DNA of 64,000 nt from a bacterium SCSIO 12741 (GTDB lineage: Bacteria > Bacteroidota > Bacteroidia > Flavobacteriales_G > Salibacteraceae), in NCBI GenBank assembly GCA_024398055.1, contig CP073749.1, positions 3,906,594-3,970,593 of the forward strand, in the 5' to 3' direction. Of this stretch, positions 3,863 through 52,935 are shown in pieces. Position 1 is the first letter of the stretch. Every line of letters begins with the position of its first letter. The notes beneath the pieces are model-generated. The model did not search any database. It saw only the letters and a program-made list of their open reading frames with translations, and was not told the DNA's origin. The position numbers were made by a program, and so were the translations under genes.

Positions 3863-5431
3863 CTAAGCCATTACTTCGGAATCCACTACCACATAGTAGC
3901 GTGGATCATCGATATCGGTCACAATCAATTCGCGAAACTTAGGATTAGCTTTGATCAACAGACCCTTACAATCTGGGCTCAAGTGTTTTAGGCGTACCGT
4001 TTTTCCTGCTTTCTCGTATTTGCCAACCAAACCACGAATGGCCTCAATTCCAGAGTGATCAGAAACTTTTGACTCAATGAAATCGATTTCTACATTTTCA
4101 GGATCCTCTTTTACATCAAACTTGCTGTTGAAGGTCTGAACCGATCCAAAGAACAAGGGACCCCAAATTTCGTAAACCTTGGTGCCATCTTCTTTAACGT
4201 GTTTGCGAGCACGAATCCGTTTTGCATTTTCCCAGGAGAAAACGAGAGCAGAAACGACCACACCAGCAACTACGGCAATGGCTAAATCAAAGATGACCGT
4301 GAGGGAAGAAACCAGGATGATAACAAAGGCATCACTTCTCGGAATCTTTGGTATAACGCGGAAACTTGACCAGGCAAAGGTTCCAATAACCACCATGAAC
4401 ATAACGCCAACCAAAGCAGCGATCGGAATTTGCTCGATAAGCGGCGAGAGGTACAAAATGAAGAGCAAGAGGGCAGAGGCGGCAACAATTCCTGACAAAC
4501 GACCACGCCCTCCGGAGTTCACATTAATCATCGATTGACCAATCATAGCACAACCGCCCATACCACCGAAAAATCCATTTAGGATGTTGGCCGCACCTTG
4601 GGCCATACATTCCCGGTTACCATTTCCACGTGTATCCGTCAATTCATCAATCAGCTGCAGTGTCATCAAGGATTCAATCAATCCAATGGCCGCCAAAATC
4701 AAGGCGTAAGGGAAAATGAATTTTAAGGTTTCCAGATTCAAAGGAATCGTGGGAACTCCAAAGGTGGGTAGAGAACCTTGAATGCCTTCTCCACCTACGA
4801 ATGAGCCTACCGTTTGCGTATCCAATCCGCCAAAAATCACCAGCAAAGAAACCGTGAGAATAGCGACCAATCCGGCCGGAACCTTATTAGTCAATCGGGG
4901 GAGGAGGTACATGATAGCCATGGTGAGACCCACCAATCCGGCCATGAGGTAGAAGGACTGATCGAATACGTATTCGCCTTCCACCTTAAACATCCCCAGT
5001 TGTGAGACAAAAATGACAATGGCCAATCCATTTACAAATCCCATCATCACAGGGTGGGGGATCAAACGAACGAATTTACCCAGGCGGAAAACACCAGCGG
5101 CAATCTGAATGATTCCCATGAGAACCAAGGTGGCAAAAAGAAACTGAAGCCCGGCAGATTCTACTTGAGGGTAGAGTTCGCCTGCTTCTTTAACCAAGTG
5201 GACCATGACTACAGCAAGAGCACCCGTAGCACCTGAAATCATTCCCGGACGTCCGCCAAGAGCAGCTGTTACCAAGCCTACCATAAAAGCTCCATAGAGT
5301 CCGATGAGCGGAGGAATGCCAGCTACGAATGAAAAGGCCACGGCCTCTGGTACAAGAGCCAGAGCTACGGTGATACCCGATAGAATATCGTCTTTGGCGT
5401 TGGCTGATTTTTTACGAATAAGTTCCCACAT
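3863..5431 (-). CDS. SulP family inorganic anion transporter with C-terminal STAS domain
   Basis: 522 residues. Residues about 15-400 form a multi-pass membrane domain with SulP signatures: ALALVPEAVAFSFVAG near the N-terminus, GLYGAF, ISGATGA, and the conserved LIESLM and GGCAMIGQSMINV stretches. Residues about 420-515 form a STAS domain with an IDF strand and a DHSGIEAI turn. SulP proteins move sulfate, bicarbonate or similar anions, often with Na+ or H+; substrate cannot be read here. The architecture resembles BicA-type bicarbonate transporters, but that is only a resemblance. It is divergent from recQ across about 290 bases that must hold both promoters. Confidence 0.93.
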   Translation of the reverse strand: MWELIRKKSANAKDDILSGITVALALVPEAVAFSFVAGIPPLIGLYGAFMVGLVTAALGGRPGMISGATGALAVVMVHLVKEAGELYPQVESAGLQFLFATLVLMGIIQIAAGVFRLGKFVRLIPHPVMMGFVNGLAIVIFVSQLGMFKVEGEYVFDQSFYLMAGLVGLTMAIMYLLPRLTNKVPAGLVAILTVSLLVIFGGLDTQTVGSFVGGEGIQGSLPTFGVPTIPLNLETLKFIFPYALILAAIGLIESLMTLQLIDELTDTRGNGNRECMAQGAANILNGFFGGMGGCAMIGQSMINVNSGGRGRLSGIVAASALLLFILYLSPLIEQIPIAALVGVMFMVVIGTFAWSSFRVIPKIPRSDAFVIILVSSLTVIFDLAIAVVAGVVVSALVFSWENAKRIRARKHVKEDGTKVYEIWGPLFFGSVQTFNSKFDVKEDPENVEIDFIESKVSDHSGIEAIRGLVGKYEKAGKTVRLKHLSPDCKGLLIKANPKFRELIVTDIDDPRYYVVVDSEVMA

Positions 5432-5718
5432 AATTCCCGAGTTTGCCTCAAAAAGCCGGCAAAAGTACTCCGGTTTTTTCGATTTATGAATACCTAATAC
5501 GCACTTTTCCAGCTTGTTTTTAGCAGAACAAGCCGGATATTGATTTCAGGTGAAGTCTGAATGCTGAGGAGGGTCGTGGAAAAGATGTACACATCTTTTG
5601 GCAAAAGAAAGCTCGCAAAACGGCAAAAAGTGGACCTTTGATTGGTGATGTTTGAAGGAATAGGAGCTCTTAAAAGAATCAATTGCATTAGATTTGAATT
5701 CAACCCAAACCAATCTTT

Positions 5719-7527
5719 ATGCTAACTACCTTAAAACAACATTTCGGGTATTCCGAATTCCGCCCGCTCCAAAAAGAAATCATCGAAAACGTCATGGATG
5801 GCAAAGACACCGTGGTGTTGATGCCTACCGGAGGAGGTAAGTCCATTTGCTACCAGTTACCGGCTCTTTTAATGGACGGATTAACCCTGGTGGTGTCGCC
5901 CTTGATTGCCTTGATGAAGGATCAGGTAAACGCCCTTCAGGCCAATGGAATTGCCGCTGAATACCTCAACTCAAGCTTGGATGAAACGGAAGAGCGAGCC
6001 ATTGTCGATCGATTGATGAACCAGGAGTTAAAGTTGCTCTACGTGTCGCCTGAGAAAATCTTTTCGGCCAATTTTCTGGACTTTCTCCAACAATTGCCCA
6101 TTCGATTAATTGCCATTGATGAAGCCCACTGTGTAAGTAGCTGGGGGCATCACTTTCGTCCCGAATACCGTGAACTTAAGGTATTGAAAGAAACCTTCAC
6201 AGAAGTTCCCGTGGTGGCACTTACCGCCACTGCTGATCGAGCTGTGAGAGCCGATATTGGGCAACTTTTGGGCATGGAATCGCCGAGCTATTTTGTGGCT
6301 TCATTCGATCGGCCCAATCTTTCCCTGGCCGTGCTACCGGGGCGTCAAAAGTGGGAACAAACCCGAAGGATTCTGCGGAATTTTAAAAATGAATGCGGAA
6401 TTATTTATTGTGGCAGTCGCAAGGCTACCGAGGAATTAAGTTCGAAGCTGAAGCTGGCTGGATTTAAAGCCGGGCACTATCATGCTGGAATGAAACCGGA
6501 CCTCAGAGCTCAGGCCCAGGAGGATTTTATTCAAGGCAACCTTAACATCATTTGCGCAACTATTGCCTTTGGAATGGGGATAGATAAATCCAATGTTCGC
6601 TTCGTGATTCATCAAAATATGCCGGGTAATCTGGAGAGCTATTACCAGGAGATTGGACGTGCAGGTCGTGATGGATTGGATTCTGAAACCTATCTCTTCT
6701 ACAGTTACCGGGATGTGCAAACCCAAATGGGATTCATTGAAGCCATTGACAATCCCCAATACCGTGAAATTCAGGAACTGAAACTACAGCGAATGCAGGA
6801 GTTTGCTGAAGCTCAAGTATGCAGGCGTAAAATTTTGCTGAGCTATTTCAGCGAAAATCCGGGTGAAGACTGTGGTAATTGCGATGTCTGTAAGAATCCA
6901 CCCCAATACATGGATGGAACCCGAGAAGCTCAAATGGCTCTTTCGGCCGTGACCAGAACCGGAGAACAAGCCGGTGTGACGCAACTCATCGACATTCTAA
7001 AAGGAACCCGATCGGTAGCTGTATTGCAAAACCAATGGCACCAGCTCCGAACATTTGGGGTAGGACAGGCAGTAACCGCATTTGCCTGGCAGCTCTTTCT
7101 GCAGCAGCTGATTCAACAAGGGTTTCTCGAAATCGATTACCGGGATCACAACAATTTAAAGCTGACCGAATTGAGCCGGGAGGTACTTTTTGAAAACAAA
7201 AAAGTGCGGCTGGTAACTCCGGAAACTATTCGGGAGCGTCAAAAACAGCCTGATAAAGCGCCCGTTTTGGATGAGGTAGAATTCCTGTCTTCCGACGAGC
7301 GGTTGTTTGAAGCACTTCGTACTTTGAGAAAATCCATTGCCCAAAAAATTGGAAAACCGCCCTTTGTTGTCTTTAGCGATGCATCACTTAAAGATATGGC
7401 CGCCAGAAAACCGAGTGATCGGGATGAATTCCTGGAAGTTAGCGGGGTTGGAGAGTTTAAAGCCAAGCGTTACGCGGAAGCCTTTTTGGAAGTGATCAAG
7501 ACCAATCAGGAAGCCGCACAAGAGTAA
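5719..7527 (+). CDS. recQ: ATP-dependent DNA helicase RecQ
   Basis: 602 residues, normal length for a short bacterial RecQ. The sequence shows Walker A PTGGGKS (Lys41), DEAH box (135-138), aromatic-rich loop following it, helicase motifs V/VI (IAFGMGIDKSNVRFVIH; YYQEIGRAGRDG), the Cys-rich zinc-binding RQC part (CRRKILLSYF ... CGNCDVC) and a C-terminal HRDC domain (about 525-600). RecQ unwinds DNA 3' to 5' in recombination and fork repair. In the aromatic-rich loop, the usual WGHDFRP reads WGHHFRP, a change next to a residue that couples ATP hydrolysis to DNA. All other motifs are intact. Confidence 0.97.
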   Translation: MLTTLKQHFGYSEFRPLQKEIIENVMDGKDTVVLMPTGGGKSICYQLPALLMDGLTLVVSPLIALMKDQVNALQANGIAAEYLNSSLDETEERAIVDRLMNQELKLLYVSPEKIFSANFLDFLQQLPIRLIAIDEAHCVSSWGHHFRPEYRELKVLKETFTEVPVVALTATADRAVRADIGQLLGMESPSYFVASFDRPNLSLAVLPGRQKWEQTRRILRNFKNECGIIYCGSRKATEELSSKLKLAGFKAGHYHAGMKPDLRAQAQEDFIQGNLNIICATIAFGMGIDKSNVRFVIHQNMPGNLESYYQEIGRAGRDGLDSETYLFYSYRDVQTQMGFIEAIDNPQYREIQELKLQRMQEFAEAQVCRRKILLSYFSENPGEDCGNCDVCKNPPQYMDGTREAQMALSAVTRTGEQAGVTQLIDILKGTRSVAVLQNQWHQLRTFGVGQAVTAFAWQLFLQQLIQQGFLEIDYRDHNNLKLTELSREVLFENKKVRLVTPETIRERQKQPDKAPVLDEVEFLSSDERLFEALRTLRKSIAQKIGKPPFVVFSDASLKDMAARKPSDRDEFLEVSGVGEFKAKRYAEAFLEVIKTNQEAAQE

Positions 7528-10791: not shown

Positions 10792-11038
10792 GTTCCCGAA
10801 TTCGATTTCTCAAGGTAACAATTAATTAACATTAAATCAAACTTTAGTTAATGGTATTCTTGGCCTTGTCGGCAGGAAAACATGCGGATACATCGCCCCA
10901 AAAAATACCCGAAAATTGACCTAAGATGTGTCTTTGCTCAGTATCTTTATACCCACAATTTTAAGAGGGAACACCGGGCCGGGAGGCTAACTCAAAAAAA
11001 GTATGTTTTAGTGGCCCACGGCTGGTTGACCCAGCATC

Positions 11039-12345
11039 ATGAAAGCACTCAACATTCCCGCACTGGACCTACCCAGAGTGGTCATTCTGGGGGAGGGTTT
11101 GCCGGGTTGAAGCTGGCGCGTAAATTGAACGACAGCTTAGTCCAAACCGTCCTGATTGACGAAAACAATTACCACACTTTTCAGCCCCTGATGTATCAGG
11201 TAGCAACCGCTGGTCTCGAACCGGATTCTATTGCCTATCCGCTGCGAAAGACGCTGAAAAACAAAAAAAGAACCCACATCCGAATGGCTACCGTTCAGGA
11301 AATTAGAACGGACGAAAAGCGAGTGGTAACGAACATTGGCGAATTGGAATACGATTACCTGGTGATTGCCACCGGGGCCAAAACCAATTTTTTTGGGAAC
11401 AAAAACCTGGAGAAATTTGCCATGCCCATGAAGAGCCTGACCGAGTCATTGGACTTGCGAAGTCTTATCTTACAAAACTTTGAAGCAGCTCTCAACGAAA
11501 AAGATATTCAAAGGCAGGATAGCCTGATGAATTTTGTGATCGTTGGGGGAGGGCCCACAGGGGTAGAACTGGCAGGTGCGCTCTCCGAACTTCGAAAGCA
11601 TGTGCTGCCACGGGATTATCCCGATCTGGATATCCGCCGTATGCAAATTCACCTTATCGAGGCAGGGCCAAGATTGTTGGCGGCGATGTCTCCTGAGGCT
11701 TCTGCCAATGCACTTAAGTACCTAAGAGGTATGGAGGTGAATGTTTGGACCGAGACCTTGGTAAAGGATTACGACGGGCAAACCATTTATACAGCGGAGC
11801 AGAACATTAATTCCGCATTGCTTATTTGGGCAGCCGGCGTTATGGGAAATATTCCCGAAGGAATTCCGGAAAGCAACATCGAACGAGGCCGAATAGTGGT
11901 TAATGAATACAATGAAGTTCAAGGACTTGAAGGCGTATTGGCCATAGGGGATGTGAGCGTACTCAAAACCGATGAATTTCCTCAAGGTTTACCTATGTTG
12001 GCTTCTGTAGCCCAGCAACAGGGTCAATATTTGGCAGGCTCATTACAGGATAAATTGCGGAATAAAGAACCGAAGCCCTTCCGATATGTGGATAAGGGGA
12101 CCATGGCTACCGTCGGAAGAAACAAAGCTGTAGTGAAGGTTGGTAACTGGCAATTCGGAGGATTTTTCGCCTGGCTCACCTGGTTGTTTGTTCACCTTAT
12201 GCTTCTGGTTGATTTTAGAAGCCGTTTGGTGGTTTTGATCAATTGGATTTGGAGCTATGTGAATTTTGATCGGGGAACTCGGCTAATTGTTCGTCCCTTT
12301 AAAAAGAAAAAGGCTCCTGAGAAAGAATTATTTCCAAATAATTGA
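11039..12345 (+). CDS. ndh: Type II NADH dehydrogenase (NDH-2), frameshifted near the 5' end
   Basis: From 11092 to the stop the frame encodes a standard FAD/NAD(P)-dependent oxidoreductase of the NDH-2 family: FAD-binding GGGFAGLKLA, second Rossmann motif IVGGGPTGVELAGALSEL, ATGA motifs, DVSVLKT and a hydrophobic C-terminus typical of membrane-attached NDH-2 feeding quinone. The natural start appears to be ATG 11039, whose frame reads MKALNIPALDLPRVVILG and then runs into a stop at 11108-11110. One extra G in the G run at 11089-11093 would join the two frames and restore ILGGGFAG. The in-frame upstream alternative beginning at 10882 gives a Lys/His-rich leader unlike the family, so I reject it. 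This is either a real frameshift or a consensus error. Family certain, integrity uncertain. Confidence 0.85.
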
Positions 12346-14822: not shown

Positions 14823-14896
14823 GGTCCGGTAGTTCAGTTGGTTAGAATACATGCCTGTCACGCATGGGGTCGCGGGTTCGAGTCCCGTCCGGACCG
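14823..14896 (+). tRNA. tRNA-Asp (anticodon GTC)
   Basis: Complete cloverleaf: acceptor GGTCCGG pairs with CCGGACC (14889-14895), discriminator G at 14896, anticodon stem with loop CTGTCAC giving GTC at 14857-14859, and a GGGTTCGAGTCCC T-arm. The CCA end is not encoded. A strong terminator follows within 15 bases, so this is a monocistronic tRNA unit. Confidence 0.97.
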
Positions 14897-14908
14897 CTGA
14901 GAAACAGA

Positions 14909-20045: not shown

Positions 20046-20057
20046 AATTCTCGAACG

Positions 20058-20839
20058 ATGAAAAAGACAGCACTCATTACCGGCGCATCCAGCGGAATTG
20101 GAAAAGAAATGGCCCGAATTCATGCCTCTCAAGGTGGAAATCTCATTTTGGTGGCTCGCAACGAAAAGCGATTAAACGACCTAAAAGCAGAATTGGAATC
20201 GAAACATGGAGTTCAAGTCCTGGTAATCGCCAAAGATCTTTCACTGGCCAATGGCCCTCAGGAAGTTTACGATGCGGTAAAACAAGCGGGCGTTCAGGTG
20301 GATTACCTGATCAACAATGCAGGCTTTGGGGACACGGAAAGTTTCATGAACGCGATTGGGAAAAGGATTTGACCATGATTAACCTAAACATTGTGGCGCT
20401 CACGGCACTCACCCGACTATTTTTACCAGATTTTGTAAGTCGCAACAGCGGCAAGATTTTGAATGTTTCTTCTACAGCGAGTTTAATGGCAGGCCCCTTA
20501 CAAGCCGTTTATTTTGCCACCAAGGCCTATGTTACTTCCTTTAGCAATGCTTTGGCCGAAGAACTTCATGATACCCAGGTTACGGTTACAGCCTTGCTTC
20601 CAGGAGCCACCGAGACGGAATTTGCTCAAGTCTCAGGCATGGATAAAACCGATTTGTTTACCAACACGTTTAGTGCTCAATCTGTGGCTAAGGACGGTTA
20701 TGATGGAATGATTCAAGGAAAACTGGATGTACTTTCCGGATTAACCTTTGGGCAAAAAATGATGATGAATATGATTCCCCTCACTCCAAAGAAAATGTTG
20801 TTGAAGCAAATTCGGCAAATGCAGGAGATCAAGAATTAA
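20058..20839 (+). CDS. Short-chain dehydrogenase/reductase (SDR), frameshifted
   Basis: Two overlapping frames encode one SDR. The first (20058-20372) has the NAD(P)-binding TGASSGIG motif (9-16) and LINNAGFGD; the second (about 20369-20839) has ILNVSSTAS, YFATKAY (catalytic Tyr and Lys) and LLPGATETEF. The junction reads ...AAAGTTTCATGAACGC; one more T in the run at 20341-20343 would give SFHERDWEKDLTMINLN, which is continuous with the family. All catalytic motifs survive across the break, so this is either a very recent mutation or a consensus error. It stands alone upstream of ppk1. The SDR substrate cannot be predicted. Confidence 0.85.
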
Positions 20840-52763: not shown

Positions 52764-52935
52764 ATTAAAAGGATTAATTGATGCCTACTCGGTTAAAGGT
52801 TTTTCGGCTGTCACCTTCTGTAAAGGTCAATATTGGATAAGGACAAACCAACACCAACTTTGAAAGTGGTAGCCAATAGCTTGAAAGTGTATGCTTAGGG
52901 TTTGAAAGTGGTTGAATGAGGATTTTCGTACAGGA

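Follow-up and report, generated by a model that had tools for sequence, protein, structure and literature searches.

A one-base frame break in the FAD motif of a bacterial NDH-2 gene is very probably a homopolymer undercall in the assembly

Programmed -1 ribosomal frameshifting, of which dnaX is an example, follows the rule that a slippery heptamer X XXY YYZ stands in phase. Apparent frameshifts can also come from the reading of the DNA: bacterial assemblies made from long reads only are described as keeping up to hundreds of residual errors, mostly homopolymer indels, which frameshift genes (PMC8812927), and in the account of one MinION assembly it was after runs of four to five that deletion errors were most frequent (PMC12007338). 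Here we describe a gene for a type II NADH:quinone oxidoreductase (NDH-2) that is divided between two reading frames at a short run of Gs. It lies in a window of 64,000 nucleotides (the whole stretch of DNA that was analysed) from the genome of bacterium SCSIO 12741, and the features of the window used below, all on the plus strand, are the following.

11039 to 11110, plus strand: start of the NDH-2 gene, read in the ATG frame as 23 residues followed by a stop, with the first Rossmann strand PRVVILG
11089 to 11093, plus strand: run of five Gs joining both frames, one base short relative to relatives (from the sequence and the relatives' loci)
11089 to 12345, plus strand: remaining 418 residues of the NDH-2 gene and its stop, in the other frame, with the FAD and NAD motifs and NDH2_C
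10882 to 12345, plus strand: reading frame of 487 aa open to a gene caller's choice, its pre-motif residues unlike the family
11545 to 11549, plus strand: repeat of the word TGGGGGAGGG later in the NDH-2 gene, inside the NAD motif VGGGPTG, unshifted (from the sequence)
20058 to 20839, plus strand: short-chain dehydrogenase, broken, the first frame running to the stop at 20370-20372 and the rest in another frame

The window also holds a single tRNA-Asp gene at 14823-14897 (plus strand) and, on the minus strand at 52782-52817, a match to the Rfam family DUF805b, a cis-regulatory RNA (41.2 bits, gathering score 35.6).

The frame that begins at ATG 11039 opens with MKALNIPALDLPRVVILG and carries the first Rossmann strand PRVVILG; in the translation of the window it reads 23 residues, MKALNIPALDLPRVVILGEGLPG, and then meets TGA at 11108-11110. 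One base off lies the frame that carries GGGFAGLK, i.e., GGGFAGLKLARKL..., which runs for 418 residues to the stop at 12343-12345 and, when read from inside the run at 11089-11093, gives GGGFAGLKLARK... The switch between the two falls at this run, which is exactly five Gs long. Reading both frames anew from the sequence thus bore out the first-pass annotation as to a break in the FAD motif at this place, the five Gs and the roughly 400 residues left intact in the other frame. That annotation had also let the ATG frame stop about 8 codons after the motif strand; the early stop stood, but it comes 5 residues after VVILG.

The protein read in the second frame matches the Pfam profile Pyr_redox_2 over positions 7-291 of 291 (E 3.2e-42) and NDH2_C (PF22366, E 1.4e-7), and its matches to solved NDH-2 structures include 9mqy (the best, E 6.5e-66) and 5na1 (E 1.6e-39); NCBIfam returned only matches below the curated cut-offs. 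Its nearest named record, at 71% identity, is from Reichenbachiella versicolor. By its domains and structure matches, then, the gene is an ordinary NDH-2 gene, as the first-pass annotation had named it. NDH-2 matches of some sort, many strong and some partial or weak, were found in 51 of 60 genomes, this one included. In the genome itself (5,103,034 bases, one contig) the protein has a single match at E 0.001 and hence no second copy; the 18 matches to other Pyr_redox_2 proteins there are without a match to it at that threshold.

A set of 59 relatives' loci was compared at the site (57 of them distinct there; part of the genome-search matches came without a locus). Four aliphatic residues stand directly before the G-x-G motif, in a single frame, in all 59, so that the first strand and the FAD motif share one frame in every relative and are split at 11089-11093 here. 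The residues ahead of the break resemble the relatives' N-termini, e.g., DLPRVVI in two of the loci. The single frame of the relatives and this N-terminal likeness together indicate that both frames belong to one gene that is one base short at the G run, which agrees with the one missing base proposed in the first-pass annotation.

For a wider view, 1.664 Mb of this genome (G000), window included, was compared with 0.8 Mb of a genome of the same family (G001). Open reading frames of G001 were used as queries on the 1.664 Mb; 279 of 643 matched, and 15 candidate frame breaks were obtained. Two of these lie in rRNA operons, the second being hit by the same query and adjoining the second 16S. The net change is -1 modulo 3 in each of the other 13 candidates, several of which are weak (identity below 40% or larger net values), and in 10 of them the printed 49-118 bases contain a G or C run of at least 4, the remaining three having no such run nearby; in long open reading frames these runs occur about once per 341 coding bases. 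Among the strong cases are an alpha-2-macroglobulin-like gene, broken twice, and the short-chain dehydrogenase of the window, in which (over 20046-20836) one frame covers adh_short profile positions 1-93 and the other 93-189, a run of four Gs stands at 20328-20331, and the net change is -1 relative to a G001 homologue that is continuous. The reverse control, in which 407 of 1686 G000 open reading frames matched the 0.8 Mb of G001, gave two candidates, one in 23S rRNA and a weak one with 24-28% identity. In a further 400 kb of G000, where 106 queries matched, this homology test showed no break.

A gene model with frame switches permitted pointed the same way, with 31 clean switches (190 in all) in the 1.664 Mb of G000 and 2 clean switches (80 in all) in the 0.8 Mb of G001. 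The model flags ordinary overlapping genes too, and homology is therefore needed to judge its candidates, of which 69 were listed in the 1.664 Mb (31 clean and 38 that have a start close by) and 11 in the further 400 kb. Twenty of the 69, all of the one-base-loss type, were picked by hand; 16 went to Pfam, and those near 4017902, 2178402, 2569657 and 35457 were picked without a Pfam check. With 6 from the list of 11, Pfam checks covered 22 of the 80 candidates, and a single domain family continued over two frames in nine (two of them in the further 400 kb): adh_short, ACR_tran, FAD_binding_2 (sdhA), PPIC rotamase (called from a further, incomplete domain of the upstream piece, with two stretches reported and one shown), Sulfate_transp, DMFA2_C, Carboxyl_trans, Hydrolase_4 (about 48 profile positions missing between its pieces) and Lectin_L-type. 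A run of 4-6 Gs lies in the frame overlap of all nine. The choice of these nine was biased on direction; the homology test is a sample made without hand-picking for the direction of the break.

The other 13 of the 22 were left unconfirmed by Pfam. Among these, candidate 1187181 has alpha-2-macroglobulin domains in order over the break and candidate 6545 (6481 in the homology test) has LuxC on one side only, both being supported by G001 homology; candidate 486749 has the appearance of an ordinary kinase and regulator pair, and in candidate 3184258 both frames carry MORN repeats. Over the 69 switches, a G or C run stands within 25 bases in 20 of 51 of the loss type versus 1 of 18 of the gain type. 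GGG-GGN codon pairs are not rarer in G000 than in G001 (ratios 0.53 and 0.35), and the long A and T runs of this genome are seemingly little affected.

The gene for the succinate dehydrogenase flavoprotein, sdhA, is the sole gene of its family in the genome, and it too is split: one frame covers profile positions 1-51, another 13-603. The split gene was located at G000:C1:2164973-2166861, near a run of five Gs, and positions 4847-6228 of locus L099 span its break.

Breaks in the direction of base loss thus occur, mostly near G and C runs, in unrelated genes of this assembly, in excess of the related assembly, in which no convincing one was found. Because one-base losses of this kind turn up repeatedly in genes that have nothing to do with each other, and were not found in the related assembly, an error in the reading of the DNA is the most likely cause, and we consider it very probable that the break in the NDH-2 gene is a homopolymer undercall. 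The organism would then carry one ordinary, intact NDH-2 gene, and one G would have been dropped from the run in the FAD motif in an assembly whose run lengths were undercalled and incompletely corrected. Long reads are the presumed source of the error, the missing base should be present in the DNA of the living cell, and six Gs are expected at 11089-11093 in the true sequence. Counting against this reading are the further 400 kb free of breaks in the homology test, the weak candidates and the three away from any G or C run among the 13, the 13 candidates left unconfirmed by Pfam, the GGG-GGN codon pairs and the long A and T runs that show no depletion, and the intact nqrF described below. The same breadth of one-base losses, the only sdhA included, speaks against the choice offered by the first-pass annotation, namely that the enzyme is off or is made by -1 slippage.

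A recent, real loss of one G that inactivated the enzyme, with NADH oxidised by a Na+-translocating NADH:quinone reductase (Na+-NQR), is unlikely, though it deserves some weight. The break is present in the sequence as given, and homopolymer runs are real mutation hotspots as well. The genome has an intact nqrF, so that loss of NDH-2 could be bearable, and the NuoH family (PF00146) was not found in it; NADH might therefore be oxidised by Na+-NQR without NDH-2, a stand-in that we infer from nqrF, the one part of Na+-NQR that was searched for. Against a real deletion, the NDH-2 gene shows no sign of decay beyond the break, and with sdhA and other functions broken in the direction of base loss and none convincingly so in the relative, undercalled runs fit better than real loss. 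At the far end of the scale, we give almost no credence to a gene that is intact as written and simply has an unusual N-terminus. The GGGFAGLK frame is indeed open from 10852 to 12345, with in-frame starts at ATG 10882, GTG 11011 and TTG 11026, and a gene caller could for this reason annotate a single gene as long as 487 aa, its N-terminus false and the break concealed. Yet this reading places TGPTQSGHS before the motif, against the hydrophobic strand of all 59 relatives, the matching strand PRVVILG lies just upstream in the other frame, and the Pfam match to the frame begins at profile position 7. The alternative start was dropped because the first strand is absent from that reading.

Production of the full enzyme from the sequence as given, by -1 ribosomal slippage or by transcriptional slippage at the G run, would fit in direction and place, and GGG in the P site could re-pair after a -1 slip. 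The phase, however, is CTG GGG GAG, which does not form a good slippery heptamer, and the A-site codon GAG would become GGA after the slip and re-pair poorly. No stable structure was found in the 87 bases downstream (z = 0.49, with 140 of 200 shuffles folding at least as well, in a fold without pseudoknots). The first-pass annotation had turned to the run length in relatives, and this could be followed up: the run is not conserved, only 4 of the 59 relatives having at least five Gs at the motif, all in frame, and so no conserved slippery site stands there. Five bases are also short for transcriptional slippage, and a further point against it is that the gene contains TGGGGGAGGG once more, at 11545-11549, and is translated there as VGGGPTG with no shift. 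A literature search on frameshifting and slippage in connection with NDH-2 found no paper, and the viral_contigs scan found no relative. Slippage, which the first-pass annotation had raised, was dropped on the grounds of phase, fold, conservation and the second TGGGGGAGGG word, and we hold it to be highly improbable. An equally slight chance goes to a bacterium in which many genes are one base short at G and C runs and a general, relaxed -1 slippage restores them, so that sdhA and NDH-2 would be made in full.

If a homopolymer undercall is indeed the cause, the biological weight of the break is slight, the enzyme being an ordinary NDH-2, and automatic annotation may assign it a false N-terminus. 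The case is also a warning that frame breaks in this assembly are not to be taken for pseudogenes or recoding without the reads. Were the breaks real, they would mean either widespread recent gene loss, including that of the only sdhA, or a new habit of recoding.

Compared with programmed -1 ribosomal frameshifting of the dnaX type, the site is alike in the direction of the shift and differs in being without a good heptamer, an unusual downstream structure and a conserved site. Its likeness to long-read homopolymer errors, as far as these are described in PMC8812927 and PMC12007338, is that one-base losses at runs frameshift genes across the genome; the breaks confirmed here, in contrast, lie at G and C runs and not at the commoner A and T runs. 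To other NDH-2 systems the gene is alike in its Pyr_redox_2 and NDH2_C domains, in both dinucleotide motifs and in relatives of up to 71% identity, and the sole difference is the one-base break that the reading frame has in the first motif in the window.
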